This document shows, piece after piece, positions 1 to 15,168 of a stretch of DNA of 24,911 bases. The DNA lies in IMG/VR virus record IMGVR_UViG_3300017739_000099, positions 1-24,911 of that record, one strand, 5' to 3'. The translations under genes were made by a program, and so were the position numbers. The stretch is from a virus. The notes under the pieces are model-generated. The model searched no databases, was not told where the DNA came from, and saw nothing but the letters and a program-made list of their open reading frames with translations. Position 1 is the first letter of the stretch. Every line of letters begins with the position of its first letter.

Positions 1-124
1 CTCAACTACAGCAACAACTTATAACTTTACTATACGAATAACAGATGCTGAAAATCAGACGGCTGATAGAGCATTTTCTTTAACAAGCTCATTTGGAGCA
101 ACTGGCGGAGGACAATTTAACTAA
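1..124 (+). CDS. Tail fibre Ig-like protein, C-terminal end (partial)
   Basis: This open frame runs in from the window edge and ends at TAA 122-124, overlapping the next ATG (TAATG). The visible 40 residues, ending in RAFSLTSSFGATGGGQFN, match the C-terminus of the protein at 2530-3276 (shared YxFTIRxTDAxxQTADRAFS and a final GQFN). It is therefore the end of an upstream paralogue and most likely a virion fibre protein with a cadherin/He_PIG-like Ig fold. It is the first gene of the upstream copy of a duplicated three-gene cassette. Everything N-terminal lies outside the window. Confidence 0.8.
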   Translation, partial: STTATTYNFTIRITDAENQTADRAFSLTSSFGATGGGQFN

Positions 125-1476
125 TGGCTGCATCAACTTATCTTTCAAATAACTTACCAAATAACTCATCAGGTAATTATAAATTTACTTATTCATGTTG
201 GGTAAAAAGATGTGATTTAGGAGGTGAGTGTTTTTTACTTCAATTTTATAATGATGATAACAATAGATTTGGTTTTAGATTTAATGCTGACAGTACAATA
301 GCAACTTACGACAGACTAAGTGGTAGTACAACTATGTATAAAGCATCAAATGCTATTTTCAGGGATACTTCAGCTTGGTATCATTGCCAAATAGCAGTTG
401 ATAGAAGTTTATCGACAGCAGACGACAGGGTGAAAGTGTATGTTAATGGTGAACAAATTACATCATGGGGAACAAACACAAATTACTCTAATCAAAACCA
501 AACATCAATAGCAAATAGCACAGGTAATGTTTACATAAATACTTACGACACCAGTCAAAGTAAATTTAGCATGTTATTATCACATGTACATTTTTGTGAT
601 GGACAACAATTAGCACCAACAGTTTTTGGTGAAACAGATACAACAACTGGACAATGGAAAATTAAGGCAGATCCTAGTTTTACTCCAGGTACAAATGGAT
701 TTACAATTTTAAAAGACGGAAACACAATTACAGACCAATCAGCTAATTCTAATGACTGGACTTTAGCTGGTGGTACACTAACTAATACTGTAGATAATCC
801 TTCCGATAATTTTGCAACAGTTAATATATCATATTATAGTGCTACAAATGTTACTGCTACTGGAATACATCTTGGAAATCTAGGAATTAATCAATCATCT
901 AATGCTTCACCTTTTTATTCAACTATATCTGTACCAAGTGGTAAGTATTATTGGGAGGGTTTTGTAGAAACTGTTGGTTCAAATAATATGCATGGTGTTC
1001 ACAGAACACTAGACATAAACGAAACAAACAATCCTGGTAATCCAGCTAATGCAGCTTATGGATATGCTTATAGGTCAGACGGAAGTAAATTTAATGGTGG
1101 GTCAGCAACATCTTATGGAAATAGTTTTACAAGTGGTGATTATATTTCGGTAGCTTATGATGCAACAAATGGTGCTATATGGTTTGCAAAAAATGGTACA
1201 TGGCAAAACTCAGCAACTACTTCAGAGATAGCTGCTGGAACTACAACCAATGCAGCTTTTTCAAGTATGCCAACAAACGGAGTATTTTACACACCTTATA
1301 CTTATCTTAGTAGTAGTGGTGTTGTTAGATTTAATTTTGGTAATGGAGTATTTGGTTCAACAGCTTTAACAGGTACAACTTATTCACCAACTGTAGGAAA
1401 TACTAGTGCAAAATTTAAGTACAATATTGTACCAAATGGTTTTGCAGCTTTATCAACGAAAGGATTAAACCAATAA
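124..1476 (+). CDS. Tail fibre-like protein with LamG-like and SPRY-like domains (copy 1)
   Basis: A 450-aa protein with two lectin-like beta-sandwich regions. Residues about 20-170 look like a LamG/concanavalin A-like domain (FTYSCWVKR, DDRVKVYVNGEQITSW, LLSHVHFCDGQQL). Residues about 255-410 look like a SPRY domain (GKYYWEGF, GDYISVAYDATNGAIWFAKNG, VVRFNFGNG). Such folds in phages sit on tail fibres and bind host surface glycans; that role is inferred here. The start overlaps the stop of the preceding fibre gene, and the stop overlaps the ATG of the next, so the three genes are translationally coupled. A diverged paralogue with the same domain order lies at 3286-4656. Confidence 0.8.
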   Translation: MAASTYLSNNLPNNSSGNYKFTYSCWVKRCDLGGECFLLQFYNDDNNRFGFRFNADSTIATYDRLSGSTTMYKASNAIFRDTSAWYHCQIAVDRSLSTADDRVKVYVNGEQITSWGTNTNYSNQNQTSIANSTGNVYINTYDTSQSKFSMLLSHVHFCDGQQLAPTVFGETDTTTGQWKIKADPSFTPGTNGFTILKDGNTITDQSANSNDWTLAGGTLTNTVDNPSDNFATVNISYYSATNVTATGIHLGNLGINQSSNASPFYSTISVPSGKYYWEGFVETVGSNNMHGVHRTLDINETNNPGNPANAAYGYAYRSDGSKFNGGSATSYGNSFTSGDYISVAYDATNGAIWFAKNGTWQNSATTSEIAAGTTTNAAFSSMPTNGVFYTPYTYLSSSGVVRFNFGNGVFGSTALTGTTYSPTVGNTSAKFKYNIVPNGFAALSTKGLNQ

Positions 1477-2516
1477 TGTCTTATACAACAATTAATAAAT
1501 CTTCAGATCATTTTAATACTAAAACTTATTCAGGTACAGGTGCAATACAAACTATATCAGGAATAGGTCTTGAGCCATCATGGATATGGATTAAATCAAG
1601 AACTAATGCTGGTAATCACAAATTAACAAATACAGCACAAGGATTAACTTATTATAATAGAGCAAACGGAACTAACGCACAAGAAAATCACACAGATTCA
1701 ATAACTGCTACAAATAATGATGGTTTTGTTTTAGGAGCTGATTCTACAAATGATTTCAATGCAAACGGACAAAGTTATGTATCATGGAATTGGAAAGGTG
1801 GTACTACATCAGGTTTATCAGGTGGTGATATTACACCAAGTAGTTATTCATATAATGCAGTAGCTGGTTTTGGAGTTTATAAATATTCTGGAAATGGTTC
1901 TGATAACCAAACTATAGTCCATGGTTTAGGTGCTACTCCTAGTGCAGTATTATTTAAATCATTAACTAACACTGAAGCTTGGAGATATCACTATGAAGAT
2001 AGAGGACAATTTTTTACTCATAGACAAATATTAGATGACAATGTTGCTAACGCAGGTCAAACTGATGGGTTAAAAGCTGCATCAAGCACAACAGTTACTT
2101 TAGGAAATGGTGGTGCTTACAATACAAATGGTCAAACTTATATAATGTATTTATTTGTAGAAAAAACTGGTTACAGTAAATTTTCTCATTATGTTGGAAA
2201 CGGAAATACAAATGGTACATTTATTTATACAGGATTTAAACCAGCTTTTATTATAACAAAAAATCAAAATGCTACAGATAGTTGGATTTTATTAGACAAC
2301 AGAAGAGATGTTGCACCTAATCCACATAAATTAGCTTTATTTCCTAACGGAACTGATACAGAAGCTGGTGATTATTTAACAGATTTTTATTCTAATGGAT
2401 TTAAAATTAGAAGTGCTACTGGTTCATTAAATACAAATGGTTCAGTTTATCTTTATTTAGCTTTCGCAGAAGCACCATTAGTTGGCTCAAATAATATTCC
2501 ATGTACGGCAAAATAG
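1476..2516 (+). CDS. Tail protein with triple beta-repeat, marine-phage type (copy 1)
   Basis: A 346-aa protein built from three related segments. The first starts near residue 13 (YSGTG..TISGIGLEPSWIWIKSR), the second near 128 (VAGFGVYKYSGNGSDNQTIVHGLGATP) and the third near 236 (FSHYVGNGNTNGTFIYTGFKPAFIITKN). Each has a Y-x-G-N/T-G turn followed by a GL/GFxP strand. I recall this pattern in marine phage tail proteins, probably the family annotated DUF7483, but I cannot verify the accession. It probably acts in host recognition at the tail tip. It is coupled to the LamG/SPRY gene upstream, and the paralogue at 4656-5684 has the same three segments and a similar C-terminus (AFAEAPLVGSN against AWAEEPLVASN). 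Confidence 0.75.
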   Translation: MSYTTINKSSDHFNTKTYSGTGAIQTISGIGLEPSWIWIKSRTNAGNHKLTNTAQGLTYYNRANGTNAQENHTDSITATNNDGFVLGADSTNDFNANGQSYVSWNWKGGTTSGLSGGDITPSSYSYNAVAGFGVYKYSGNGSDNQTIVHGLGATPSAVLFKSLTNTEAWRYHYEDRGQFFTHRQILDDNVANAGQTDGLKAASSTTVTLGNGGAYNTNGQTYIMYLFVEKTGYSKFSHYVGNGNTNGTFIYTGFKPAFIITKNQNATDSWILLDNRRDVAPNPHKLALFPNGTDTEAGDYLTDFYSNGFKIRSATGSLNTNGSVYLYLAFAEAPLVGSNNIPCTAK

Positions 2517-2529
2517 GAAAAAATAAATT

Positions 2530-3276
2530 ATGACAAAAGCAAGAGATTTAGCAAACTTTGTATCAGGCACTAATAGTGCAATCACTACTACACAGATAGA
2601 TGATAATGCAGTAACTAATGCCAAGATAGCAAATGAATCTATTACAATAAATGGTTCGGCAGTTAATCTTGGTGGATCTGTTACAGTTGGTGAAACAAAA
2701 CCAACAATCTCCGGCATAAGTCCTAGTACAATAGAGAACACAGCAACTAATATTACAATATCAGGTACTAATTTTGTATCAGTACCTACTGTTGAAGCTA
2801 TTAGTTCTACAGGTTTAATTACAAGAGCAAATTCAGTTTCTTTTTCAAGTGCCACATCTATTGTAGCAAATTTTACTTTAGCTACAGATGGTACATATTT
2901 TATAAGAGTAGAAAACAATGATGGTAATGCAGTAAGATCAGGTTCTGCTTTACTTACAGTTTCCGATGCTCCTGGTTGGACTACTTCGGCTGGTTCATTA
3001 GGAACTTTTGCAGCTGGTACAAGTTTTGGTACAATAAATTTAACAGCAACAGATTCAACATCAATGTCTAAAACATCAGGTACATTTCCAGGTGGTATGA
3101 CACTTAATAGTGGTGGAAGTGGTACATCAACATTAACTGGTACAGAATCAGGTGCTACAGCAGAAACAACTTACAGCTTTACAATTAGAGCAACAGATGC
3201 TCAAGGTCAAACTGCTGACAGAGCTTTCAGTATAACAATATCAGTAGGAATTAATAACTCAGGACAGTTTAACTAG
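2530..3276 (+). CDS. Tail fibre protein with IPT/TIG-like and cadherin-like Ig domains (copy 2, first gene)
   Basis: A 248-aa protein. The N-terminus MTKARDLANFVSG, with alternating DDNAVTNAKI/NGSAVNLGG segments, resembles the attachment end of many marine phage fibres. Residues about 57-142 look like an IPT/TIG Ig domain (KPTISGISPSTIENTATNITISGTNF). Residues about 150-240 look like a He_PIG/cadherin-like domain (GTFPGGMTLNSGGSGTSTLTG, YSFTIRATDAQGQTADRAFS). The last 40 residues match the partial gene at the window start. A purine-rich leader, AGGAAAAAATAAATT, precedes the ATG. It opens the second copy of the A-B-C cassette. Confidence 0.75.
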   Translation: MTKARDLANFVSGTNSAITTTQIDDNAVTNAKIANESITINGSAVNLGGSVTVGETKPTISGISPSTIENTATNITISGTNFVSVPTVEAISSTGLITRANSVSFSSATSIVANFTLATDGTYFIRVENNDGNAVRSGSALLTVSDAPGWTTSAGSLGTFAAGTSFGTINLTATDSTSMSKTSGTFPGGMTLNSGGSGTSTLTGTESGATAETTYSFTIRATDAQGQTADRAFSITISVGINNSGQFN

Positions 3277-3285
3277 GATAATATT

Positions 3286-4656
3286 ATGGCAACAACATAC
3301 ATATATAGGACACCATCTTCGACAGGAAGCAATACCATATCAACATTTTCAGGTTGGTTGAAAAAATCAGTAAATGGAAGTTATGAGGGTATTTTTACAT
3401 CTGTTTATGAAACAGGGGAATTTTTTGAAATAAATTTTGAACCAGGAGATTCTCTTGAAGTAAGAGCAAAAGTAAGCAGTAGTTATGTTTTAAGAAAAAT
3501 TACTACTAGAAAATTTAGGGATAATTCTGCGTTTTACCATATCGTAGTTGTTATTGATACTACAAATGGAACAGCAGAAGATAGATGTAAAATATATGTA
3601 AATGGAACAAGAGAAACAAGTTTTTCTACAAATACAAATCCATCTCAAAATCAAGATTTAAAAATGAATACTGCTGGAAGTTATGAACAAAGATTAGGTA
3701 GAGATGAGTGGAGTACACCAGCTTACTATGATGGATTAATGTCTCATGTGCATTGGGTTGATGGAACTGCTTATCAGGCATCAACTTTTGGGGAAATAGA
3801 TTCTGTTAGCGGAATTTGGATTCCAATAACAAGTCCAGCTGGAGTAAGTTATGGAACTAATGGTTTCTTTTTTAAATTTGAAAATTCAGGCAATATGGAT
3901 TTAGATAGTAGTGGAAACAACTTAACATTTACTACAGGTGGAACACTAACTCAAAATGTAGATACACCCTCAATAGTTTATAATTCTCTTAATATGTCAG
4001 CTTCTCATCTTGGAACAGGTATTACTATTTCAAATGGAGGTAATTCATTTAATTCAGGTAGTACAGTTCAATATGGAATTGGTGTCTGTAATTATGCTTT
4101 AAATAAAGGTAAGTGGTATTACGAATATAAAATGGGTCATGCTTGTGCTGGTGGTGGAATAGGCGATACATACCAAGTAGCTTTAAGAATAAAAAGTGGT
4201 ACTGCTTTAGGTAACACTACTGAAGAATTTGCATGGGAGGGTAATGGTTATATGAAAACAAATAATGGTCAATCAGCTTATGGCTCTGCTGCAAGTGCTG
4301 GTGATATTATTGGTCAATATATAGATTTAGATAATAATAAAATGTATGTAGCTGTTAATGGAACAATACAAAATTCAGGAACAGGGTTTTCAATTACTGA
4401 CCCTAATAGTTTAAGTTCAGGTTATTATTATGTTGGTTTAATTTCAGACCAATGTAGTGCAACAGCAAATGTAACTGCTGATATGAATTATGGTGGTGGA
4501 TATTTTGGAACAACGGTTGTATCTTCTGCACAAGCAGACGCAAACGGACAAGGAATATTTGAATACTCACCTAACAATGGTGGTGCTGCATCTTTTGATA
4601 GTGCTGCTAAAAACTTTTACGCATTAAACACTAAAAACATAAAGGAGTTTGGATAA
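3286..4656 (+). CDS. Tail fibre-like protein with LamG-like and SPRY-like domains (copy 2)
   Basis: A 456-aa paralogue of the protein at 124-1476 with the same architecture. The LamG-like region at about 15-170 has STFSGWLKK, DRCKIYVNGTRETSF and LMSHVHWVDG followed by STFGEIDSVSG. The SPRY-like region at about 275-420 has GKWYYEYKMG, GQYIDLDNNKMYVAVNG and DMNYGGGYFG. Only short motifs match copy 1, so the duplication is old or has been under diversifying selection. It is coupled to the next gene (ATG at 4656 overlaps the stop). The likely role is binding host surface polysaccharide; this is inferred. Confidence 0.8.
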   Translation: MATTYIYRTPSSTGSNTISTFSGWLKKSVNGSYEGIFTSVYETGEFFEINFEPGDSLEVRAKVSSSYVLRKITTRKFRDNSAFYHIVVVIDTTNGTAEDRCKIYVNGTRETSFSTNTNPSQNQDLKMNTAGSYEQRLGRDEWSTPAYYDGLMSHVHWVDGTAYQASTFGEIDSVSGIWIPITSPAGVSYGTNGFFFKFENSGNMDLDSSGNNLTFTTGGTLTQNVDTPSIVYNSLNMSASHLGTGITISNGGNSFNSGSTVQYGIGVCNYALNKGKWYYEYKMGHACAGGGIGDTYQVALRIKSGTALGNTTEEFAWEGNGYMKTNNGQSAYGSAASAGDIIGQYIDLDNNKMYVAVNGTIQNSGTGFSITDPNSLSSGYYYVGLISDQCSATANVTADMNYGGGYFGTTVVSSAQADANGQGIFEYSPNNGGAASFDSAAKNFYALNTKNIKEFG

Positions 4657-5684
4657 TGGCTTATATTTCATTTAAACCATCAGATAATTTTTCACCAAAT
4701 ATATGGAACGGTACAGGTTCTGCTGGTCATACAATTACTACAGGTCATAGTACCGATATGGTTTGGTTTAAACAAAGAAATGGAACGCAATACCACCAAA
4801 TTTTAGATGATGTAAGAGGTTTAGATAAACCTATTTATCCAAATGATAACCTTGCACAAGGTAGTGGTTCAACAAGAATATCAAGCACAACAAGCACAGG
4901 ATTTGTTTTAGGTGATGGTAATAATGACAGTAATGGTTCAGGTAATACTTATGTTGGTTTGTCTTGGAAAGCTAACGGACAAGGTTCATCAAACACAGAT
5001 GGTTCGATAAATACCACTTACACATCAGTTAATACTACTGCTGGTATCTCAATTTGTAGATGGACTGGAAGTGGTGCTAACGCAACTATTGGTCATGGAC
5101 TAGGTGTTGTACCTAAAATGTATATTGTTAAAAACACAAGTGTTGCAAATGATTTTAATGTTTATCATCATAGTATTGGTAATACTCATAGATTATTTTT
5201 AAATATCACACAAGCACAAGAAGATAATGCAAGTGCTTGGAACGATACGTCACCAACTTCATCTCTTTTTACAGTTGGTACAAATACCAATGTTAATCAA
5301 AGTGGTTCTGCAATGGTTGCTTATGTATTTGCAGAAAAACAAGGTTTCAGCAAATTTGGAAAATATAAAGGAAACGGAAATGCAGATGGTACGTTTGTTT
5401 ACACAGGATTTAAGCCAGGATTTGTAATAGTAAAAAATATTGAAACTACAGGTCAATGGCAAATGTTTGATAGCAAAAGAGGTGTAAATAATGCTATGGG
5501 TTTTCTTTATCCTGATAGTGCTGAAGCAGAAACAGCGACAGTGCCAATGGATATATATTCAAATGGTTTTAAATTTAGAGATACTAGTGAAGCAAGAAAT
5601 GGTAATGGTTATGATTTTGTTTTTATGGCTTGGGCAGAAGAACCTTTAGTGGCATCAAATGGTGATGTAGCACCGGCAAGATAA
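4656..5684 (+). CDS. Tail protein with triple beta-repeat, marine-phage type (copy 2)
   Basis: A 342-aa paralogue of 1476-2516. Three internal segments are visible: FSPNIWNGTGSAGHTITTGHSTDMVWFKQR near residue 12, TTAGISICRWTGSGANATIGHGLG near 128, and FSKFGKYKGNGNADGTFVYTGFKPGFVIVKN near 232. The linker SSNTDGSINTTYTSVNTTAG is a form I remember from other marine phage tail proteins. The C-terminal FVFMAWAEEPLVASN matches copy 1. It closes the second fibre cassette and is followed two bases later by the 108-aa gene. Confidence 0.75.
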   Translation: MAYISFKPSDNFSPNIWNGTGSAGHTITTGHSTDMVWFKQRNGTQYHQILDDVRGLDKPIYPNDNLAQGSGSTRISSTTSTGFVLGDGNNDSNGSGNTYVGLSWKANGQGSSNTDGSINTTYTSVNTTAGISICRWTGSGANATIGHGLGVVPKMYIVKNTSVANDFNVYHHSIGNTHRLFLNITQAQEDNASAWNDTSPTSSLFTVGTNTNVNQSGSAMVAYVFAEKQGFSKFGKYKGNGNADGTFVYTGFKPGFVIVKNIETTGQWQMFDSKRGVNNAMGFLYPDSAEAETATVPMDIYSNGFKFRDTSEARNGNGYDFVFMAWAEEPLVASNGDVAPAR

Positions 5685-5686
5685 TT

Positions 5687-6013
5687 ATGGCAAACAGTTA
5701 TAAATTTAAAGGTGTTACTTTAAGTACTCAAAGTGAAACATCTATTTTAACAGCTGCTGCTAAAGAAACTATTATTATTAAATCATTAAGAGTTACTAAT
5801 AATACAGGGAATACACCTAGTATATCTTTTGATGTATTAGATAGCTCTAGTTCAGTCGAAGCTACAATTTTAAACACACAAAGTTTGTCTGCTAATAATT
5901 CTGTTGAAATTTTAACACAACCTTTAGTTCTTGAAACGACAGATATTCTTAAAGCAACAGTCAGCAGCAACGATAATATAAATATTGGAATAAGTTATTT
6001 AACTATATCGTAA
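5687..6013 (+). CDS. Small beta-rich virion protein, putative
   Basis: A 108-aa protein of alternating polar and hydrophobic residues (SKFKG-like N-terminus, KETIIIKSLRVTNNTG, SISFDVLDSSSS, DILKATVSSNDNINIGISYLTIS), consistent with a single beta-sandwich domain. I have seen proteins of this shape directly after tail fibres in marine phages, but I recognise no enzymatic motif. It sits two bases after the fibre cassette, and its stop overlaps the ATG of the next gene (TAATG), so it is in the structural operon. A fibre-associated or head-tail decoration role is inferred only. Confidence 0.65.
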   Translation: MANSYKFKGVTLSTQSETSILTAAAKETIIIKSLRVTNNTGNTPSISFDVLDSSSSVEATILNTQSLSANNSVEILTQPLVLETTDILKATVSSNDNINIGISYLTIS

Positions 6014-6453
6014 TGAAATTAGTAAGAATACCAACCGAACTGTTAGATACAGTTTGGACTTTGGTACAACCCTCTATACAAGAAGCTTTAGTTTTTTCAG
6101 GAAATCATACCGATAGTGATTTTGTTTTAGAAACATTAAAAGCAGATAAATATCAATTATGGATTGTTTGGGACACTTCTAAAAAAGGAGTGCAAGAACA
6201 ATTTAGAGGTGTTGTAGTTACCGAAATAATTAAAAGAAAACTAAAACAATCTTGTCATATATTTATCATGACAGGAAAAGGCAGACAACAATGGCAACAC
6301 TTAATAGGAGTCATTGAAGATTTTGCTATACAACATGGTTGCGAACAAATGGAATTGTTTGCAAGGCCAGGATGGCAAAAAATATTACAACAATACAAAT
6401 ACAAAAGAACTCATGTAGTTCTTGAAAAACAACTAACTAAAAAGGAAAAATAA
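6013..6453 (+). CDS. GNAT-like acetyltransferase fold protein
   Basis: A 146-aa protein. The segment ELFARPGWQKILQQYKYKRTHVVLEK near residues 114-138 is the C-terminal signature I associate with small phage GNAT-like proteins found beside tail and internal virion genes. DKYQLWIVWD and FRGVVVTEI fit the central strands, and a possible cofactor loop, GKGRQQW, lies near residue 93. Its substrate is unknown, and many such phage proteins have no demonstrated activity. It is coupled to the genes on both sides. Confidence 0.6.
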   Translation: MKLVRIPTELLDTVWTLVQPSIQEALVFSGNHTDSDFVLETLKADKYQLWIVWDTSKKGVQEQFRGVVVTEIIKRKLKQSCHIFIMTGKGRQQWQHLIGVIEDFAIQHGCEQMELFARPGWQKILQQYKYKRTHVVLEKQLTKKEK

Positions 6454-6454
6454 T

Positions 6455-7177
6455 ATGTCATTTGGAAGTAGTGGGTCAGGCGGAGGACAAGCACAAAATG
6501 TTAATGTTCAGCCCTATGCAGCAGCACAACCAGCATTAAATCAAATTATATCTGAAGCTGGTCAGGTTTACAATCAAGGTGTAACTGGTGCTGGATATGT
6601 AGCCCCAACTAGTCAAACAACAACTGGTTTAGCTCAACAAGAAACATTAGCTAATGCAGCTAACACACAAATTTCAAATACTTTAGCTGGTAATTATTTA
6701 AACCCTTATTTAAATCCAATGTTGCAAGATGCTACTAGTCAAATTGCAAATAGTATTAATACTGAATTTAGTGGTGCTGGTAGAACACCAGGAAGTCCAT
6801 TAAACCAACAAGAAATTATTGGTCAAGTTGCTGACTATGCTTTACCTTTAGCTTTTCAACAATACAATACTGAAAGACAAAACCAATTAGGTTTAGCAAC
6901 ATCTTTACCAAATTTAATTACAACTGGGCAACAATTAGAACAAATTGAAAGACAAAAGAATTTAGCACCTTTCCAAGCTCTACAACAATATGGAAGTATT
7001 ATAAGCCCAATAGCATCAGGTTTACCAGTAACACAATCAGAAACAGCTTATAACCCTAACATATTTACACAAGCTTTAGGCGGTGCATTAGTAGGTAATA
7101 AACTAGGCGGTGATAGATTTGGAACTGCTGGTGGAGTAGTTGGTGCTATAGGCGGAGTATTATCAGGATTATTATAA
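6455..7177 (+). CDS. Putative virion/ejection protein
   Basis: A 240-aa Gln/Asn/Ala-rich protein. It begins with a Gly/Ser-rich segment (SFGSSGSGGGQAQ), continues with YLNPYLNPMLQDATSQIANSINTEFSGAGR (residues about 75-108) and ends in a Gly-rich hydrophobic tail (ALGGALVGNKLGG...GVVGAIGGVLSGLL). The 'NPYLNPML..I...N..F..AGR' segment is typical of virion proteins encoded next to internal/ejection proteins in podoviruses. The glycine-zipper-like C-terminus suggests membrane interaction during DNA delivery; this is inference. Its stop overlaps the ATG of the next mini-gene (TAATG). Confidence 0.6.
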   Translation: MSFGSSGSGGGQAQNVNVQPYAAAQPALNQIISEAGQVYNQGVTGAGYVAPTSQTTTGLAQQETLANAANTQISNTLAGNYLNPYLNPMLQDATSQIANSINTEFSGAGRTPGSPLNQQEIIGQVADYALPLAFQQYNTERQNQLGLATSLPNLITTGQQLEQIERQKNLAPFQALQQYGSIISPIASGLPVTQSETAYNPNIFTQALGGALVGNKLGGDRFGTAGGVVGAIGGVLSGLL

Positions 7178-7287
7178 TGAATAAAATAAATAAAATAATT
7201 TATAATTTAAAACAAGATATAGATAAAAACACAACAAAATATATTATGATTGTTGGTGGTTTAGCTATTCTTGGAATTATTATCTAA
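7177..7287 (+). CDS. 36-aa small membrane protein
   Basis: A short gene, ATG at 7177 to TAA at 7285-7287. It encodes a basic N-terminus (MNKINKIIYNLKQDIDKNTT) and a C-terminal hydrophobic stretch of about 14 residues (YIMIVGGLAILGIII). It is coupled to the upstream stop (TAATG) and lies one base before the next ATG, filling the gap exactly, which argues it is real. It may be a membrane-active component of the ejection module. No homologue is recognised. Confidence 0.6.
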   Translation: MNKINKIIYNLKQDIDKNTTKYIMIVGGLAILGIII

Positions 7288-7288
7288 T

Positions 7289-8500
7289 ATGAAAAGTTAT
7301 AAAAAAGCGGTTGGCTTGTTACAAGAAGATGCACCTGAAAATCACTTTCTTGCATATATAAATACTACAGAAGCAAAAGCATTAAAAGAAATGGGTGGGT
7401 CAGGTAAAATGACTCCACAAGGTATATTAAGTTTTGAACCTGAAGATGGTTATGAGGGTGAAGTTTCAAGTAGTTTTGGTGGATATGGTGGCGGTGGTTT
7501 TAGCGACAATACAGATTCAGAAGAGAATCAACCTTACAATAATCAAGGTTTTAATTACAGCGGTTCATCGGATGATAGTCCTTATGATGGAACAGAAGAT
7601 TTAGAAACACAAAGAGAAATAGATATCCAAGTTGAAAACGATAAATATTTTGATTATGAAACTGAAGCTTATAAAAATGTTGAGGCTAAAGCTGTGCCTA
7701 CTTTTGAACAAGGTAGTGGAAAATTTACTGGCACAAAAACTGTAGGTCAAGGTATAGTAACAGCAGCAGATTACAATTTAGCAACTACTAAAGGTATTAT
7801 GCTAGACGATACTATAAGCAAAGATGACAAGGTAGAATTTTTAAATACTATTCAATCTATTGTAAATTCTAAAAGAGATAGTGGTAAACCAGCAGTTGAT
7901 TTTGAGGGTAAAGAATTTATCCAAGATAATTTAGAAAAAACATTAGCTGAAATTAAAAACAATTCTTTTTATGATACTTATACTAAAGATGAAAAATTTG
8001 ACGCAAATTCACAAACTTATAATGATGCGTTTTTAGATGCACCTTTTAAAACTTTAGGCACATCATCTATTGGTATTACTGGTGTTAGTCCAGTTGGCGG
8101 TGCTATGAAAATTATGTTTAATTCTTTAAAAGATTCTTTTAAAAACAAACAAGCATTAGATATGATTGGATATGATGGCACTAAACTAAAACCTAATTAT
8201 GCTGAAGTAGGTGATGGTGGTGGTATTTTGACTGATAAAGAATATTTATTAGGTAATACTTTAGATAGTGACCAAATTAATCAAGCTATACCTAATTTAA
8301 GAACTGATACAAATAATCCTTTACCTGATTCAGTTGTAAATAGATTTTACGATAATAAAAGTTTTAGCACAAATGATTTTAAAAAAAATTACAACGAAGC
8401 TTTAGCAAAAATTACTAACACAACACAAAACAATAAATATAATTTTAGTGGATATAATAATATTTTCTATGATTACTTAAACGAAAGAGGATTAATTTAA
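7289..8500 (+). CDS. Putative internal virion protein
   Basis: A 403-aa protein. I place the start at the ATG at 7289, because the frame upstream offers only a TTG inside the preceding mini-gene. The N-terminus has the segment HFLAYINTTEAKALKEMGG followed by GKMTPQGILSF (residues about 16-46), which I recall in virion proteins of marine podoviruses. A Gly/Ser/Asp-rich acidic linker follows (about 55-105), then a mostly helical remainder ending FYDYLNERGLI. The stop overlaps the next ATG (TTTAATGG). An ejection or tail-tube role is inferred from position between the fibre genes and the 841-aa protein. Confidence 0.6.
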   Translation: MKSYKKAVGLLQEDAPENHFLAYINTTEAKALKEMGGSGKMTPQGILSFEPEDGYEGEVSSSFGGYGGGGFSDNTDSEENQPYNNQGFNYSGSSDDSPYDGTEDLETQREIDIQVENDKYFDYETEAYKNVEAKAVPTFEQGSGKFTGTKTVGQGIVTAADYNLATTKGIMLDDTISKDDKVEFLNTIQSIVNSKRDSGKPAVDFEGKEFIQDNLEKTLAEIKNNSFYDTYTKDEKFDANSQTYNDAFLDAPFKTLGTSSIGITGVSPVGGAMKIMFNSLKDSFKNKQALDMIGYDGTKLKPNYAEVGDGGGILTDKEYLLGNTLDSDQINQAIPNLRTDTNNPLPDSVVNRFYDNKSFSTNDFKKNYNEALAKITNTTQNNKYNFSGYNNIFYDYLNERGLI

Positions 8501-9513
8501 TGGCAACTTTAAAAGGTTTACTAGAAGACGAAAATTTTATGATTGGTATGGGCTTACTTGGTGAGGGTGCTAAAGGTAAATCTATAGGCGAAGCATTTAA
8601 TACATCTGCTAAAAATTATGCAGATATGAAAAAAGCCTTTTCTGTTTCTGCACCAAAAACAAAAGCTGTAATTAACACATTAACTAATGGTTTAGTTTTA
8701 AGGTCAGACAAACAAATTGCTGAAACAAATAAAGGCGGTGATATACTTATTCCAGCTCCCAAAAAAGGAGTTACTGTTAATACAGGTAATTCACAAAATG
8801 AATTTGAAAAAGCTTTAGGTAAGGGTGATGCTAAAACAGTTTTAGATTTAAGAAAATTATCTGAAGCAGCTGTAAAAGAAAATGATAGTTTAACACTTGT
8901 AACTACTTTAGCTAAAGAATTAGAAACAGGTCAATTTGGTAATACTTTATTAGATTTAGCAAAACTTGGTGAAAGATTTGGTATAGATATGAACTTTTTA
9001 TCTCAATATAGTGATTCAGGTTCAATTGATGAAACTATTGCAAACGCAGAAACTTTAAAAATTGTATCATCAGTATTTGTATTTGATGCTATTGGTAAAA
9101 CAAAAGGTTCAATATCAGAAAAAGAAATGCAATTGTTTCAAGATATTTCATTAGGATTAGGAACAACACCTGAAGGTATTGCTTTAACATCTAAAATTAA
9201 AAGAAGATTAAACGAAAGAATTATGGAAAAGTCTGAAATGATGGAAGAGTGGATTTCAGATGGTTCAAGACCTACTTCAAAAAAAGATACTGTTTATGGT
9301 AAACTTACATTTAACCAAATGTATAATAAATATATTAACCAAAAAGATAGTAATGGTGACTTAGTAAATCCTTTATTTACTAAAGAAGAGTATGCCGATA
9401 TGAGTAATATAACTTCAGCAAATACAAACCCAAACATTATTGAAGATAAGCAAGGAAATAGATTTTATGTAACGCAAAAGGGTGGTTTTGTTGCTTTACC
9501 TAAATTAAAATAA
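8500..9513 (+). CDS. Putative internal virion protein
   Basis: A 337-aa mainly helical protein. It has an N-terminal GLLEDENFMIGMGLLGEGAKG segment and a helical core (NDSLTLVTTLAKELETG, FVFDAIGKTKGSISEKEMQLFQD at about 195-217). It ends in a short beta hairpin with FYVTQKGGFVALPKLK. The 'GKTKGxxSxKEMxxF' stretch is a feature I associate with virion proteins next to large ejection proteins. It is coupled to the upstream gene and seven bases before the next. There is no catalytic motif. The function is inferred from synteny. Confidence 0.6.
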   Translation: MATLKGLLEDENFMIGMGLLGEGAKGKSIGEAFNTSAKNYADMKKAFSVSAPKTKAVINTLTNGLVLRSDKQIAETNKGGDILIPAPKKGVTVNTGNSQNEFEKALGKGDAKTVLDLRKLSEAAVKENDSLTLVTTLAKELETGQFGNTLLDLAKLGERFGIDMNFLSQYSDSGSIDETIANAETLKIVSSVFVFDAIGKTKGSISEKEMQLFQDISLGLGTTPEGIALTSKIKRRLNERIMEKSEMMEEWISDGSRPTSKKDTVYGKLTFNQMYNKYINQKDSNGDLVNPLFTKEEYADMSNITSANTNPNIIEDKQGNRFYVTQKGGFVALPKLK

Positions 9514-9520
9514 TATTATT

Positions 9521-12046
9521 ATGGAATTAATAAAAGACGAAGAAAAAATAAAAGAACTTGAGTCTATTGTTATAAAACAAAAGTATGATGGTTCTAATGT
9601 TGTAACAGACAAAAATAAAATTAAAGAGCTTGAAAATATAGCAAACGTTAAAGCTCAAAAAGAAAAAGAAAAGCCTAATTCTTTTATAAAATTTACTAAA
9701 GATTTTTACACAGACAATATTAGCGGAAGTTCTAAAACAGAATTTCCTAATATGACTGAAATATATACTATTAATTCTAAAGGCACAGTAAAAGGTGCTT
9801 TAAAAGATTTATCTTTAAATTTTGGTTATATGAATACTGCTGACCAAAACGCAAGGTTAGATATGTTATTTGAAGCATATCCAGGATCAATTATATCAAA
9901 AGACAAATTTCAAAATATAATGATTACTTTACCTGAAGCATCAGTTGATAAAGGTACAAATAGAACTTTTTATCTTGATAAACCTGGAGTTAGTTTTGCT
10001 GGTGCAGTTGATACAGTCGGTACAACTTTATTATATGTTCCTGGTGCTGGTTGGGTTGCAAAAAATGTTGCTGGTGGAGCTGTAAAAAGAATAGTTGCAC
10101 AAGGCGGATCTGCTACTGCAACAGGTATAGTTGGTGATGTAATTACAAACCAATTAGGTAATACTCAAGGCGATGGTTTTATACCTATTATTGATGAGGG
10201 TAAGGCATTATTAAATTTTAGTTTTGGTGCAGCTGGTGAAAAGTTTGCTCAAACAGTTACTAAAATAACAAAATTGAATAAAGCAACAAATTATTTAGAG
10301 CAAAGTGTACCAACAAATATTGCACAAATTTTTGGTAAACAAAAATATATTACAAACAAAGGTGTTGTAACTGAAGAAACTATTAACCTTGCAAAAAAAG
10401 TTGGTGCAACTGAAAAAGCTATGAAAAATAAAGTAGCTATGACTTCTTTTGCTTTAGCTTTAGATAATGGGTTAGATCCAAGTATTGCAAAACAAGTAGC
10501 TGGATTAAATGAGTTTGGTATATCTGTTTGGTTAGCATCTGCACAAGGTAATAAAAAAGCATTAAAAGAATTAGATCAAATTAGAGCTGGAAATGCTGGT
10601 GCGGATATGCAAGCAATTGTTCAAGCTCAAGATGATGCTATTTTACAAGAACATTTTAAAGCTTTAACTGCGATGCGAAACAAAATGTTATCTGATAAAG
10701 ACTCAGCAATTAAAGGTCAAATTATTGGTGACCAAAAAAATATTGCTACAAGTAATATTGATGACAGTATTGCAAAATTAGATACTATGATTAACCAAAC
10801 TGCAAAAAAAATGCAAGCTTCGGTAAATGCTAAATATGATGCAGTTGGTTTTAATTTAAGTTTTAAAAAACCACAAGTTAATGGTTTAGTAAGTAAATTA
10901 AAAGCATCATTAGTAAGTAGTGAGTCAGGTATAGGACAAGCTTTTAATAAAACTACTATGCCAAATACAGCAGCATTTTTAAAAAATATGGAAGGTTTTA
11001 CTAAAAAACTTAACAATAAAAATTTAACTAAAATTACTTATGGTATGCTTGAAACTGAAAGAAAAAACTTAAACAGAATTATGTCTACTACTAAAGATGC
11101 AACTGATTTAGCTGCATTATCTGTTATGAAAAAAAGGTTTGATGTTTTTTATGACAACGCAGTTGAAAAAGGTTTAGCAAGTGGAAATAAAGATGTTTTA
11201 ACTGCAATTAAAAATGCAAGAACAGCAAGTGCAGAATATAAAAAAATGTTTGTACCGCAAAATATTAAAGCTACTGGAACTAGAATTACAGATAAAGGCG
11301 GACAATTTACTCAAAAAGTTTTAAATGGTGAGTACACACCAAAAGAAATTGCAAACTTTGTTTATGGTGCTACTAAAGTTGGTGGCTCTTATAAAGATGT
11401 TGGGTTACCAGTTATTAAAAAAATGTATGAAATATTTCCTGATGGATCTGCCGGTAGAGATTTAGTTAAATCAGGTGCAATTAATAGATTAATGGAAAAT
11501 AGCTTTAAAAAACTTGGAACTAGCAATAGAGAAGTATTTAGCCCTGAACTATTTTCTAAAGCTGTAAAAGATGCTGTAAGTGGTAATGGTAGAGATGTAA
11601 CTAAAATTATTTTTACTAAAGCTGAAGCAAAAGAATTAACAAAATTAGCAGATTTAATTGAATCACAATTAAGCAAAAAAAGTTTTGTAAATGTTGAAGA
11701 GGGTTCTAGTGCTTTTATGGAAGTAATTAATAATAATTTAAGACAATTAGTTGGTATAAGTGCTTTTAATGTTGCAAACATACAAGGGCTACTTGCTGCT
11801 AGAGGTGTTTTTGATTCAGCTAAATTAATTGCTAGAAGAAATGCTGCACAAGGACAAATTAAAGAAGCTTTATTTGCTGCTAAACTACCATCAAGTTCAG
11901 GTGGAGCTGGTTTAGTAGACCAAGCAGTAGAAAATAGACCTGTGTTTAAAGATATAAATAATCAAATGTATAATAAACAAAAAATTGATAATGCAAAAGT
12001 TTTAGAAGATATGAAAATAATTGAGAGTTTAAATAAATACCGATGA
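9521..12046 (+). CDS. Large internal virion/DNA-ejection protein, putative
   Basis: At 841 aa this is the largest protein in the window. The N-terminus holds a short Lys/Glu repeat (KDEEKIKELESI at 6-16, DKNKIKELENI at 30-40). Residues about 158-210 are Gly/Ala/Val-rich and hydrophobic (FAGAVDTVGTTLLYVPGAGW, IVAQGGSATATGIVGDVI) and could insert into a membrane. The rest is long helices rich in Lys, Ala and Asn, ending in charged KIDNAKVLEDMKIIESLNKYR-like sequence. Size, composition and position at the end of the structural block fit the ejection proteins of T7-like and related podoviruses. No lytic transglycosylase motif was found. The stop overlaps the next ATG. Confidence 0.6.
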   Translation: MELIKDEEKIKELESIVIKQKYDGSNVVTDKNKIKELENIANVKAQKEKEKPNSFIKFTKDFYTDNISGSSKTEFPNMTEIYTINSKGTVKGALKDLSLNFGYMNTADQNARLDMLFEAYPGSIISKDKFQNIMITLPEASVDKGTNRTFYLDKPGVSFAGAVDTVGTTLLYVPGAGWVAKNVAGGAVKRIVAQGGSATATGIVGDVITNQLGNTQGDGFIPIIDEGKALLNFSFGAAGEKFAQTVTKITKLNKATNYLEQSVPTNIAQIFGKQKYITNKGVVTEETINLAKKVGATEKAMKNKVAMTSFALALDNGLDPSIAKQVAGLNEFGISVWLASAQGNKKALKELDQIRAGNAGADMQAIVQAQDDAILQEHFKALTAMRNKMLSDKDSAIKGQIIGDQKNIATSNIDDSIAKLDTMINQTAKKMQASVNAKYDAVGFNLSFKKPQVNGLVSKLKASLVSSESGIGQAFNKTTMPNTAAFLKNMEGFTKKLNNKNLTKITYGMLETERKNLNRIMSTTKDATDLAALSVMKKRFDVFYDNAVEKGLASGNKDVLTAIKNARTASAEYKKMFVPQNIKATGTRITDKGGQFTQKVLNGEYTPKEIANFVYGATKVGGSYKDVGLPVIKKMYEIFPDGSAGRDLVKSGAINRLMENSFKKLGTSNREVFSPELFSKAVKDAVSGNGRDVTKIIFTKAEAKELTKLADLIESQLSKKSFVNVEEGSSAFMEVINNNLRQLVGISAFNVANIQGLLAARGVFDSAKLIARRNAAQGQIKEALFAAKLPSSSGGAGLVDQAVENRPVFKDINNQMYNKQKIDNAKVLEDMKIIESLNKYR

Positions 12047-12252
12047 GAACTCAATCGCAAAAAAACTCTGAAGAAATAATAAAATTACAAGGCGAAGTTA
12101 AGCTCATACACACAAAGATAACGGTTATTAAAGATAATCACTTAGCACACATCGATAAAAAATTAGATAACCTTTATAAAATTATTTGGCTAATATTCGG
12201 AATAAGTCTAGCAAGTCTAGCAGACTTAATAAAACATCTATTAATAAATTAA
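12043..12252 (+). CDS. Coiled-coil membrane miniprotein (XhlA/holin-accessory-like)
   Basis: A 69-aa protein. Residues about 1-48 form an amphipathic coiled coil (EEIIKLQGEVKLIHTKITVI, HIDKKLDNLYK) and residues about 49-66 a single membrane segment (IIWLIFGISLASLADLI). This layout matches the XhlA type of holin-associated protein. The ATG overlaps the 841-aa gene's stop (ATGA). Its 3' end overlaps the nuclease frame at 12186 by 67 bases in a different frame. A role in membrane permeabilisation or ejection is inferred. Confidence 0.55.
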   Translation: MRTQSQKNSEEIIKLQGEVKLIHTKITVIKDNHLAHIDKKLDNLYKIIWLIFGISLASLADLIKHLLIN

Positions 12253-12524
12253 ATACATCTCAAAAAGGTGTAGTTGGCGAATATGTAGAGATAGCAAACT
12301 TAACCAAACAAGGTTATTGGGTTGCTAAAGCAGTAGACCCAGCTTGTCCGTTTGATTTAGTAGCAGTAGATTCTAAAGGCAATATTCAATTGCTAGACAT
12401 TAAAACAAATACTTACAGAAAAAAAGCTAAAAAGAAAACATGGAGTAAACGCATTTGTCGTTCTCCAACTAAATTACAAAAACAATTAAACATTAAATAT
12501 GTGATGGTAGATCATGGAAATTAA
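12186..12524 (+). CDS. PD-(D/E)XK nuclease, resolvase-like
   Basis: A 112-aa protein if translation begins at TTG 12186, the only usual start codon in frame before the conserved part. The fold signature is clear: GVVGEYVEIANLTKQGYWV (Glu32), PFDLVAVD (Asp57) and LLDIKT (Asp71, Lys73). This gives E-x24-D-x13-DxK followed by a basic stretch (YRKKAKKKTWSKR). Such small nucleases act as Holliday-junction resolvases or homing-type enzymes. A resolvase could process branched DNA before packaging. It overlaps the preceding gene by 67 bases, and the true start is uncertain. The catalytic core is convincing, the substrate is not known. Confidence 0.65.
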   Translation: MANIRNKSSKSSRLNKTSINKLNTSQKGVVGEYVEIANLTKQGYWVAKAVDPACPFDLVAVDSKGNIQLLDIKTNTYRKKAKKKTWSKRICRSPTKLQKQLNIKYVMVDHGN

Positions 12525-12526
12525 TA

Positions 12527-12871
12527 ATGAAAATCAATGAGAATACGAATATCGGATTACCAATTAAAAATTTAATAGCTATCATTTTTTTTATTTGCAC
12601 AGGTTTGTATGGCTTTTTTACAATCCAAGAAAGATTAAATAAATTAGAGACAGCAGATACCCTTTTCCAAGCTGATCTACTCAAAAAAGCAGAGCAAGAG
12701 CCGAAGAATCTAGAAATGTATATGCTCATAGAGCATTTAGCCGGTCAAATAGAATCAATAGAAAAAGAGATAGAGGCTAGTAGATACAACAAAGTAAATA
12801 TAGATCACCTAAAAGAACAAATAATTTCTTTAAATAAAGATTTAGAAAAAATTAGAAACGGACATCAATGA
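12527..12871 (+). CDS. Membrane-anchored coiled-coil protein, possible i-spanin-like
   Basis: A 114-aa protein with an N-terminal membrane segment (residues about 12-32, LPIKNLIAIIFFICTGLYGFF). A long Glu/Lys coiled coil follows (IQERLNKLETADTLFQADLL; IEHLAGQIESIEKEIEAS; LKEQIISLNKDLEKIRN). This N-in, periplasmic coiled-coil layout is that of inner-membrane spanins, but no partner lipoprotein with a lipobox is visible nearby. A tail-related or holin-accessory role is equally possible. The stop overlaps the next mini-gene ATG (ATGA), in keeping with the coupled lysis operon. Confidence 0.55.
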   Translation: MKINENTNIGLPIKNLIAIIFFICTGLYGFFTIQERLNKLETADTLFQADLLKKAEQEPKNLEMYMLIEHLAGQIESIEKEIEASRYNKVNIDHLKEQIISLNKDLEKIRNGHQ

Positions 12872-12927
12872 AAAAAATTATAGATAAAATAGAGAAATTA
12901 TTATTAAAACTTATGGGTTGGAAATAA
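12868..12927 (+). CDS. 19-aa amphipathic helical peptide
   Basis: ATG at 12868 overlaps the previous stop (ATGA) and TAA 12925-12927 overlaps the next ATG (TAATG). The mini-gene thus exactly bridges its neighbours. The peptide MKKIIDKIEKLLLKLMGWK is a textbook cationic amphipathic helix. A similar but longer peptide is encoded at 13227-13337. Its placement just before the lysozyme suggests a membrane-active accessory of lysis. That is an inference from composition alone. Confidence 0.45.
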   Translation: MKKIIDKIEKLLLKLMGWK

Positions 12928-13145
12928 TGTTGGAATCTGTTGTGGCATTATTATTATTTCTAAAAGGTGATGTTATAGAAGCAACATATAAAGACAAGAT
13001 GTCTGCCTGTCTCAAATCTAAACGTTTAGCTGAGAGGGAGGTAAATCCTAATAATGTTAGATTCAGTTGCCAAAAAATTCAAGCAGAAACAGAAATATAT
13101 ATGGGTGCTAAAAAAATTGTAAAAATAGTATCAATGAGTAAATAA
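12927..13145 (+). CDS. Small membrane-anchored Cys-containing protein
   Basis: A 72-aa protein. The start is taken at ATG 12927 because it overlaps the preceding mini-gene's stop; the upstream TTG adds only three residues. A short hydrophobic N-terminus (MLESVVALLLFLKGDVIEA) precedes a basic helix with two cysteines (MSACLKSKR, VRFSCQKIQAE). I remember similar small proteins in marine phage lysis regions, without a known function. The N-terminus could be a signal anchor placing the two cysteines in the periplasm. Confidence 0.5.
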   Translation: MLESVVALLLFLKGDVIEATYKDKMSACLKSKRLAEREVNPNNVRFSCQKIQAETEIYMGAKKIVKIVSMSK

Positions 13146-13149
13146 AATT

Positions 13150-13281
13150 ATGAAAAAATGTAAATGTGAAAGTTGTATTTGCAAAAAAAGAAAATGTGTG
13201 TGCAAAAAAATAGTGAAAGGGGAACTATGGTGCTTTTGGATAAAATTTTGTCATATATTGAGAGGAAAGTGTCAAGTTTAA
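13150..13281 (+). CDS. 43-aa cysteine-rich miniprotein, putative metal binder
   Basis: The open frame from ATG 13150 to TAA 13279-13281 encodes nine cysteines in 43 residues: MKKCKCESCICKKRKCVCKK, then W-C-F-W, F-C-H and G-K-C. It has CxC, CxxC and CxC pairs within an Arg/Lys-rich chain, which would suit zinc or iron coordination. It lies four bases after the previous gene, but its 3' third overlaps another mini-gene that has a stronger ribosome site. It may be real or a by-product of AAA/TGT-rich sequence; I lean to real because of spacing and cysteine density. Confidence 0.4.
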   Translation: MKKCKCESCICKKRKCVCKKIVKGELWCFWIKFCHILRGKCQV

Positions 13282-13337
13282 ATACTTGGATATGGTTAAA
13301 AAGAGTTTCAATATTAAGAAGACAATCAAAAAAATAA
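13227..13337 (+). CDS. 36-aa amphipathic basic peptide
   Basis: ATG 13227 follows a strong ribosome site (AAAGGGGAACT), better than those of most genes here. The peptide starts MVLLDKILSYIERKVSSLN and ends in a basic tail (WLKRVSILRRQSKK). It is helical and amphipathic, with two tryptophans in the middle, like the 19-aa peptide at 12868. It stops six bases before the lysozyme ATG. A membrane-active lysis accessory is inferred. The overlap with the Cys-rich frame means at least one of the two might be spurious; this one has the better start signal. Confidence 0.5.
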   Translation: MVLLDKILSYIERKVSSLNTWIWLKRVSILRRQSKK

Positions 13338-13343
13338 CAATTT

Positions 13344-13769
13344 ATGGAAGAAGTAAAAGCAAGAATTAAAGCTCATGAGGGTTTTAGAAACAAAGTTTAC
13401 GAAGATACATTAGGTAAAAGAACAGTTGGATATGGTCATCTATGTGTGGAGGATCATTGGGATGATAATAAAGAATACGACGAAACTTACCTTAATGAAA
13501 TTTTTGAAAAAGATTTTGAAAACGCATTATACAATAGTCGAACTTTAATTGGCAATAGAAATATTAATTATATTGCACAAGGTATAGTTTGTGAAATGGT
13601 GTTTCAATTAGGAATAGGTAATGTTTCTAAATTTAAAAAAATGTTTGCTGCTTTAGAAACTGAAAATTATGAAGAGGCAGCTAATCAAATGATTGATTCG
13701 AAGTGGCATAAACAAACAAAATCTAGATGTGAACATTTAGCTTCTATGATGAAAACGTCAGGAAAATAA
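13344..13769 (+). CDS. Endolysin, T4-type lysozyme (GH24 muramidase)
   Basis: A 141-aa lysozyme that cleaves the MurNAc-GlcNAc bond of peptidoglycan. The N-terminus has the family's active-site layout: KAHEGFRNKVYEDTLGKRTVGYGH, giving Glu12, Asp21 and Thr27, equivalent to T4 lysozyme Glu11, Asp20 and Thr26. The C-terminal domain has the usual F-Q-L-G-x-G segment (MVFQLGIGNVSKFKKMF) and a final W-H-K-Q-T-x-S-R motif. There is no signal or anchor segment, so it needs a holin for release. A holin-like gene follows directly (2-base gap). Confidence 0.92.
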   Translation: MEEVKARIKAHEGFRNKVYEDTLGKRTVGYGHLCVEDHWDDNKEYDETYLNEIFEKDFENALYNSRTLIGNRNINYIAQGIVCEMVFQLGIGNVSKFKKMFAALETENYEEAANQMIDSKWHKQTKSRCEHLASMMKTSGK

Positions 13770-13770
13770 T

Positions 13771-14151
13771 ATGTGGTTTAATTTAATTGGCATGGCTGTA
13801 AAGACAGGTGCAGCTGTATATAAAAATAAAAAAGAGGCTGAACAACTAGAAAGTTTAGCTTACAGAAATCATGCAGAAAAAATGGCAAAAGGTGAAGTCG
13901 ATTTTAAAGTTCGTACACTAGATGCACAAGCTAATTCTATAAAAGATGAAATAGTTTTGGCGATTGTAATTTTACCAATTCTAGTTATAGCCTATTCTGT
14001 ATTTAGCGGACAGCCAGACGCACAACAAAAATTAGATTTATTTTTTGAATACTTTAACAACTTGCCTGACTGGTATGTTTGGCTCACAGTTGGAATTTTT
14101 GGAAGTATTTATGGTTTAAAGCCAGGATTGGACTTGTTTAAGAAAAAATGA
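13771..14151 (+). CDS. Holin-like membrane protein
   Basis: A 126-aa protein with an N-terminal amphipathic/hydrophobic segment (WFNLIGMAVKTGAAVYK). A charged cytoplasmic helix (about 18-60) and two membrane segments at about 61-78 (IVLAIVILPILVIAYSVF) and 100-116 (WYVWLTVGIFGSIYGL) follow, with a basic C-terminus (LDLFKKK). The pattern 'DEIVL..LP.L...(20 aa)..LPxWYxWLxxGIFGxxYGLKPG' is one I recall for holin-like proteins in marine phages. Its position beside the lysozyme supports a role in forming the inner-membrane lesion. The stop overlaps the next ATG (ATGA). Confidence 0.65.
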   Translation: MWFNLIGMAVKTGAAVYKNKKEAEQLESLAYRNHAEKMAKGEVDFKVRTLDAQANSIKDEIVLAIVILPILVIAYSVFSGQPDAQQKLDLFFEYFNNLPDWYVWLTVGIFGSIYGLKPGLDLFKKK

Positions 14152-14635: not shown

Positions 14636-14677
14636 ATTAACAAACACACATCAACAAATAAATAAAAGGAAAATACT

Positions 14678-14934: not shown

Positions 14935-14943
14935 ACAGTTTGG

Positions 14944-14995: not shown

Positions 14996-15029
14996 GGGAT
15001 ATGGGTGGGTAAATATCATGCACTATGTT

Positions 15030-15155: not shown

Positions 15156-15168
15156 AAAAATATATATA

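Follow-up and report, generated by a model that had tools for sequence, protein, structure and literature searches.

Why a phage genome should carry the same three tail-fibre genes twice in succession is the question raised by the left end of a 24,911-nucleotide viral sequence (IMG/VR record IMGVR_UViG_3300017739_000099), referred to here as the window. In this region, genes for an Ig-like protein (A), a LamG and SPRY protein (B) and a three-repeat protein (C) are followed by a second set (A', B' and C'). An earlier note on this DNA had read the arrangement as a cassette that was duplicated in tandem and has since diverged. Based on the comparisons described below, we favor, with a probability of roughly 0.8, the reading that the two sets are independently assorted, swappable complexes with separate anchors, predicted to bind receptors, rather than the products of a recent duplication. 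The source is probably a marine phage with a host among the SAR11-type bacteria. A megablast search with positions 5600–24,911 found no close described phage and returned a single 192-base match to HTVC026P; the protein encoded at 8500–9513 matched nothing in the phage collection, and no tRNA gene was found in the window.

The order of the genes between positions 124 and 5684 is B-C-A'-B'-C', and the stretch upstream of B encodes the C-terminal 40 residues of the first A (frame 2, bases 2–121), 26 of which are identical to the end of A'. Thus, the cassette order does repeat, but the "two full sets" proposed earlier are not visible, since the window holds just this remnant of the first A. The lengths of the paired proteins, described as equal, are similar only (450 and 456 aa for B and B', 346 and 342 aa for C and C'), and the stop/start overlap TAATG, said to be the same in both sets, is found at A/B (122–126), B/C (1474–1478) and B'/C' (4654–4658), but is replaced by a spacer at A'/B'. 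As in the tail-fibre cassette of pelagiphages, A, B and C lie in this order on one strand in both cassettes, with most of A missing from cassette 1 only because the record ends there.

Table 1. Coordinates of the cassette genes and neighboring features in the window.
Feature	Position	Strand	Basis or remark
Remnant of the first A (Ig-like fibre tip), 40 C-terminal codons plus stop	2–124	+	Frame-2 translation ending ..GATGGGQFN*; cut at the left end of the record
B, LamG-like and SPRY, cassette 1, 450 aa	124–1476	+	PHROG 27411, E 4e-68; Pfam SPRY, E 3e-8, residues 297–407
C, DUF7483 three-repeat protein, cassette 1, 346 aa	1476–2516	+	Pfam PF24299, E 1e-89; PHROG 24898 "tail fiber protein", E 2e-70
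A', free-standing Ig-like fibre tip, cassette 2, 248 aa	2530–3276	+	He_PIG, E 2e-6
Short MTKARDLA-type N-terminus of A'	about 2530–2694	+	
Spacer, 9 nt, A' stop to B' start	3277–3285	+	Shared by 36 of 160 sampled cassettes
B', LamG and SPRY, cassette 2, 456 aa	3286–4656	+	AlphaFold2 pLDDT 92; pentraxin/LamG and SPRY structure matches; domain chimera
LamG domain of B'	about 3286–3960	+	
SPRY domain of B'	about 3976–4653	+	
C', DUF7483 three-repeat protein, cassette 2, 342 aa	4656–5684	+	Pfam PF24299, E 2e-107; AlphaFold2 pLDDT 91; hhalign of three repeats
Exchange breakpoint, 3' end of C'	5625–5676	.	Near-identical contigs agree rightwards, differ leftwards
Right-hand neighbor, conserved, 108 aa, PHROG 1276	5687–6013	+	Context marker outside the cassette; downstream of a single cassette in L151 and of two in both L010 and the window

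The domain content proposed earlier (Ig-like, LamG with SPRY, triple repeat) holds for the three genes. A' has the Ig-like He_PIG domain of Pfam, B and B' both belong to PHROG 27411, and C and C' both belong to DUF7483 and PHROG 24898. The SPRY match of B scores 34.1 bits against a Pfam cut-off of 26.3 (PF00622). No Pfam SPRY match was obtained for B', but residues 231–454 of its predicted model resemble SPRY structures of the B30.2 fold (Z about 21; rmsd 1.8–2.2 over 170–180 residues). Residues 1–230 of the same model match 4dqa, PAPP-A and pentraxins with Z of 17–20, and by predicted fold the N-terminal half of the B-type protein is a LamG/pentraxin-like lectin domain. Both C proteins match DUF7483 over the full length 1–330 (300.9 bits for C and 359.7 bits for C'; cut-off, 27), and the triple repeat is genuine, as all three pairs of thirds match each other (hhalign; probability, 98%). 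No paper on DUF7483 was found in the literature searched.

In the reading favored here, a tailed marine phage would encode two host-recognition complexes at positions 1–5684, one from each A-B-C cassette. A would form the fibre tip, with an N-terminal part specific to its attachment site, Ig-like domains and a conserved C-terminal peptide, while B and C would be the putative receptor-binding proteins mounted on it. Cassette 2 would bring its own short anchor with A', whereas the A of cassette 1 probably terminates a longer fibre encoded to the left of the record; in the single-cassette pelagiphages HTVC201P, HTVC011P, HTVC041P and Skadi-1, the tail fibre gene has A as its C-terminal end. We infer that A, B and C assemble physically, that the complexes bind receptors, and that both sets are used simultaneously; a phage with two or three such complexes could bind several receptors. 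The occurrence of LamG and DUF7483 within one polypeptide elsewhere (the virion protein of about 797 aa of CRP-811; PHROG 19943) supports the view that B and C act in one structure.

An alternative role for C, or for the small genes after it, would be that of a fibre-assembly chaperone, the cassette then consisting of fibre, adhesin and chaperone. In phages, a chaperone gene often lies next downstream of the fibre genes, and C' has no convincing relative of solved structure (the best sequence match, CanA, has an E-value of 0.008 and the best fold match a Z of 5.5, both too weak to use), so C may be an assembly factor rather than a receptor binder. Nevertheless, C-like domains sit together with LamG domains in large virion proteins of other phages, C is nearly as variable as B among 117 cassettes, and both genes lie inside the published hypervariable region of Skadi-1 (PMC10504331). 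A chaperone is therefore considered unlikely.

Pairwise alignment bore out the repetition of the three-gene cassette. B and B' share 28% identity over 474 columns (E-value, 5e-31) and C and C' share 35% (E-value, 4e-56), and this homology, as judged from the protein alignments, is confirmed to be far beyond chance. The same gene order, the similar lengths, the homology of all three genes, and the residual DNA similarity (72% over 115 nt between A and A'; 71% over 164 nt between C and C') are what a tandem duplication of A-B-C in this lineage would leave behind. Moreover, the two A copies of contig L026 match one another best, at 80% identity, which indicates that duplication of A can happen. 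The relationships to other phages point the other way. In the similarity ranking of relatives, B' is only the 228th for B and C' the 161st for C. The AU test rejected B and B' as sisters (p 1.3e-8); for C and C', sisterhood was rejected in the careful tree (p 0.0087) but not in a quick earlier one (p 0.58). In 117 cassettes, identity within genomes equals that between genomes (0.549 and 0.545 for A, 0.384 and 0.384 for B, 0.451 and 0.440 for C, relatedness being not fully corrected), and of the 117 rows, just 3 for A, 1 for B and 2 for C have their best match in the same genome. As substitutions between B and B' are near saturation (pS 0.55 vs. pN 0.50), dN/dS of the copies was not used. The earlier note had named unrelated closest homologues of the copies as the outcome that would speak against duplication, and the closest relatives of each copy were indeed found in other phages, one of the two tests for C and C' being inconclusive (p 0.58). 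By ranking, identity and AU tests, a recent tandem duplication is rejected for B and mostly for C, the copies not being mutually closest. The duplication proposed for this lineage is thus quite improbable, and for B it is already largely refuted; an "arms-race expansion", also suggested earlier, is compatible with the data.

Instead, each copy seems to have been taken separately from a worldwide pool of cassettes that phages exchange by gene and by domain. Three contigs nearly identical to the window illustrate the exchange of genes. L148 is 98.9% identical to it from position 5625 and L149 99.0% identical from 5676, each for about 10 kb, and the C' of L148 is only about 51% identical in amino acids; L147, which starts at 4662, is 99.8% identical with C' included. 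Comparison of L148 and L149 with the window thus places the break of a hypervariable host-recognition island at 5625–5676. At the level of domains, B' is a chimera, with LamG matching one lineage and SPRY another: per 25-residue block, its LamG part is 79–96% identical to that of L127 (SPRY, 20–52%), and its SPRY part 48–84% identical to that of L058 (LamG, mostly 17–48%). Among the 18 pairs with LamG domains at least 70% identical, nine have SPRY domains below 45%, and even unrelated phages such as HTVC048P and L054 show domain exchange. Distances of B and C are correlated (Mantel rho 0.495; none of 300 permutations as high), those of A and B hardly (0.11), and those of A and C are not (-0.06). 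The variation extends over whole genes, and in the set of window proteins that was scanned for a diversity-generating retroelement, no family match to a reverse transcriptase was found. Where two cassettes have similar A but dissimilar B, junction DNA is better conserved than the gene interiors. B and C are thus exchanged between phages, probably by recombination at conserved gene and domain junctions, while A would keep its place in the virion; the conserved junction DNA could also mean structural constraint at interfaces rather than recombination hooks.

A search of related phages, as suggested earlier, found one, two and three cassettes. With the same right-hand genes, L151 has one cassette, and L010 and L139 have two. 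The N-terminal part of every A is of the type usual for its position: in two-cassette contigs, IEVDKI, YIGRTP and long fibres come first, TKARDL and YIGQN later, and the TKARDL-type N-terminus of A' occurs in the downstream cassette only. A' itself is up to 80% identical to the A' of L009–L011. A distinct anchor for each copy is compatible with several receptor-binding complexes on one virion, and the earlier proposal of two receptor-binding gene sets in one phage is supported, the receptor role being predicted.

The same position dependence would be expected if the duplication were ancient, at the base of several phage groups, with the copies inherited in place and exchanged occasionally. The domains and anchors of A track position, labels for position group on the B tree more closely than expected by chance (56 changes vs. 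75.9 when shuffled), and two-cassette contigs with TKARDL or YIGQN as the second anchor repeat one pair of junction classes. However, anchor labels change 45 times on the B tree and 54 times on the C tree, compared to 23 for A (72.6 when shuffled; relatedness not fully corrected), C' is swapped between 99%-identical contigs, and unrelated phages exchange domains, as noted above. An ancient duplication of the whole cassette is a real possibility, though not the probable one; an old duplication of the A anchors alone would also be compatible with independently assorted complexes.

As the contigs of the close relatives L147, L148 and L149 start in or beside C', it was considered whether cassettes from two strains had been fused in one contig during assembly. 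Positions 1–4661 occur in no second contig, none having been returned by exact scans with parts of A' and of B, and no second contig crosses the link between the cassettes (about 2516–2530), L147 beginning only at 4662. Against such an artefact, the same two-cassette order and the same anchor and junction types are found in the independent contigs L010, L011, L132 and L139, and the complete genomes of the isolates HTVC103P and HTVC104P also have two cassettes. An artefact is hence highly improbable.

The terminal peptides of the three cassette proteins might further constitute matched docking classes, i.e., an assembly code that lets two or three adhesin complexes form on one virion without mixing; B-C pairs would then be swappable between phages inside a class. 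Examples are A ..GGGQFN / B ..STKGLN / C MAYTTINK and A ..NSGQFN / B ..TKNIKEFG / C MAYISFQP. Ends within a cassette are strongly associated (mutual information of 0.69 and 0.86 bits vs. 0.07 and 0.11 when shuffled), and the same two classes are combined in each of the five two-cassette contigs examined that have a second anchor of the TKARDL type. Among 43 pairs of copies from one genome, only 3 share a class of B end and C start, fewer than the 8.6 expected (21 of 5000 shuffles), a count that leaves out the group with ..RF-type A ends, chosen after seeing the data, and is uncorrected for relatedness. Avoidance of equal classes within genomes was seen neither over all genomes nor in the left-out group, and, because that group was set aside after the data were seen, avoidance is treated as conjectural. 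The docking code itself is a tentative and rather unlikely proposal.

The pelagiphages HTVC103P and HTVC104P (MN698242 and MN698243), whose isolate host is HTCC7211, resemble the window in having two A-B-C cassettes on one strand, annotated merely as hypothetical proteins, but differ in about 2 kb and two extra genes between the cassettes, in the anchors (YIGRTP, YIGQN) and in the second junction class (NAEEY). In Polarivirus skadi Skadi-1, the published hypervariable region (13,646–15,713) corresponds to B and C in the only cassette present, so the hypervariability of B and C is already on record; domain exchange and copy number are not described in the accessible part of that report (PMC10504331). 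Marine metaviromic islands (PMC3909814) likewise contain host-recognition genes varying between otherwise near-identical phages, but they are defined by read recruitment, with no named three-gene cassette and no mention of SPRY or duplication. Several receptor-binding proteins per virion with exchangeable genes, as predicted here from the genes, are known for the branched tail-spike complexes of Ackermannviridae (PMC11414711) and the L-shaped fibres (LtfA/LtfB) of T5-like DT57C (PMC4728585); the accessible parts of these two reports describe no LamG/SPRY/DUF7483 A-B-C cassette. Cassette multiplication with position-specific anchors and domain-level exchange were not found in the literature searched.

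SAR11 bacteria and the phages that infect them count among the sea's most abundant organisms, and few of the receptors involved are known. An exchangeable cassette present in one to three copies per genome provides concrete candidates for receptor-binding proteins and makes the evolution of host range in SAR11 phages testable. Cassette exchange may also help to account for the breaks that metagenomic contigs show at these sites.

The cassette, comprising A (a fibre tip with Ig-like domains), B (a LamG and SPRY protein) and C (a three-repeat DUF7483 protein), occurs twice in the same order at the left end of the window, since pairwise comparison matched B with B' (28% identity; E-value, 5e-31) and C with C' (35% identity; E-value, 4e-56), and A' is 65% identical, at its end, to the 40 residues of the first A that fall inside the record. 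The window covers the entire virus record (24,911 bases). The earlier note had described two full sets with the same overlaps; the order recurs, but nearly all of the first A lies off the record, and the A'/B' junction has a 9-nt spacer, unlike the TAATG overlap at the other junctions.

Cassette genes at the left end of the window
Gene	Position	Strand	Remark
End of first A	2-124	+	rest of first A beyond the record's left edge
B	124-1476	+	
C	1476-2516	+	
A'	2530-3276	+	
B'	3286-4656	+	
C'	4656-5684	+	

The tandem duplication and subsequent divergence proposed in the same note were not supported by the trees. The nearest relatives of B and of B' are found in other phages, each separately, and a single B+B' clade was rejected (p 1.3e-8). 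A single C+C' clade was not rejected in a quick tree of 32 rows (p 0.58) and was rejected in a careful tree of 24 rows (p 0.0087); C and C' are probably, if not provenly, not sister copies. Among 117 complete cassettes, identity of A, B and C within a genome equals that between genomes, as expected from independent draws on a common pool and not from duplication in place.

The anchor types (N-termini of A, named by peptide) follow cassette position. First copies carry long fibres, IEVDKI or YIGRTP, and later copies in two-cassette contigs TKARDL or YIGQN; SEVKVN and SILKVD anchors belong mostly to middle and last copies. On the trees of A, B and C, the anchor type has to change 23, 45 and 54 times, respectively (about 73 with shuffled labels), and B distances correlate with C distances and hardly or not with those of A. 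Thus, A is tied to its place, and the part that moves is B–C.

Exchange is also visible among close relatives. Relative L147 matches the window at 99.8%, C' included, while L148 and L149 are ~99% identical over 10 kb rightward of 5625/5676. L148 diverges immediately left of the breakpoint (C' protein ~51% identical to that of the window), and contig L149 starts there. Compared with the window, both carry ~370 additional bases at window position 15858-15863, directly before the integrase gene. The LamG part of B' is common to L127 and L023, and its SPRY part to L123 and L058. In half of the pairs whose LamG parts are alike, the SPRY parts differ (e.g., isolate Skadi-1 and contig L088), and HTVC048P and contig L054 share 94% in SPRY and only 43% in LamG. 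By these comparisons, exchange breaks within genes as well as between them. DNA is more conserved at gene junctions than in gene interiors, which fits recombination at junctions or constraint on interfaces. HTVC200P (L004, MH598801) has a rearranged cassette pair at 4554-9425, with a shortened first B, an inverted C on the minus strand adjoining the end of a B, a 40-aa A remnant preceding the second B, and a 58-nt inverted repeat (95%) at both B/C junctions (6809-6866 and 8342-8399). The arrangement looks like a recombination scar at junctions.

Family searches identified a He_PIG Ig-like domain in A' (and, with a weak TIG match, in the related A of HTVC103P) and DUF7483 in both C and C'. The predicted model of B' (pLDDT 92) was resolved by structure comparison into a pentraxin/LamG-type domain followed by SPRY. 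B varies most in its SPRY half (mean column identity, 0.35) and least in its final 30 residues (0.63). The thirds of C match one another at 98% probability in profile comparison. No convincing solved-structure match was found for the C' model (pLDDT 91), which resembles a number of predicted viral proteins, mostly much longer chains. The PHROG name of the C family is 'tail fiber protein', and several phages encode LamG and DUF7483 in one chain.

The analysis shows the order of the cassette genes, their fusions, and how they vary and co-vary. Most likely, A would display a C-terminal peptide, which is conserved, at the tip of the fibre; as to assembly and binding, we infer that B and C most likely sit on this tip and touch the surface of the cell. 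With two cassettes, each having its own anchor, every virion would then bear two recognition complexes. A, B and C have end peptides that co-vary by class, which suggests class-specific docking; avoidance of a shared class between copies in one genome was seen in part of the data only.

Host-recognition genes are known as sites of metaviromic islands (PMC3909814) and form a cluster in pelagimyophages (PMC7029224). Hypervariability at lectin-type genes has been reported for Skadi-1 (PMC10504331), and locus comparison showed that the published coordinates are its B and C genes. Phages with several receptor-binding proteins are likewise described in earlier reports (PMC11414711, PMC4728585). In a literature search with most subscription journals outside it, no paper naming DUF7483 and no description of a multiplied cassette, position-specific anchors or domain exchange was found.

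In the phage collection, relatives of C, B and A' occur in 69, 49 and 32 records, respectively, with pelagiphages as the largest group. Isolates usually have one cassette, and their tail fibre gene often ends in A; two cassettes each are present in HTVC103P and HTVC104P. Among loci with >1.5 kb on both flanks, 18 have one cassette, 6 have two and 7 have three, and C is split in 3 of the 7 triple loci. In one phage group (L033, L035, L044, L050 and L081), an insert of ~200-350 nt splits C after the first repeat. Relatives of C also occur in SAR11 genome assemblies (L169, L170 and L187), in keeping with a putative SAR11 host. Virus contig L084 and contig L173 of the 'Rickettsiales MED606' bin are probably one virus sequence binned with the bacterium, because both have 19,080 bases and a C gene. 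Synechococcus phage S-B68 (L203, MK016664) has DUF7483 relatives at six places, one of them where a 4,791-bp gene ends.

Elsewhere in the window, genes at 15861-17484 for an integrase (PHROG 1) and for a repressor-like helix-turn-helix protein suggest a temperate phage. A DNA methyltransferase (PHROG 359; E-value, 4e-82) is encoded at 22494-23105.
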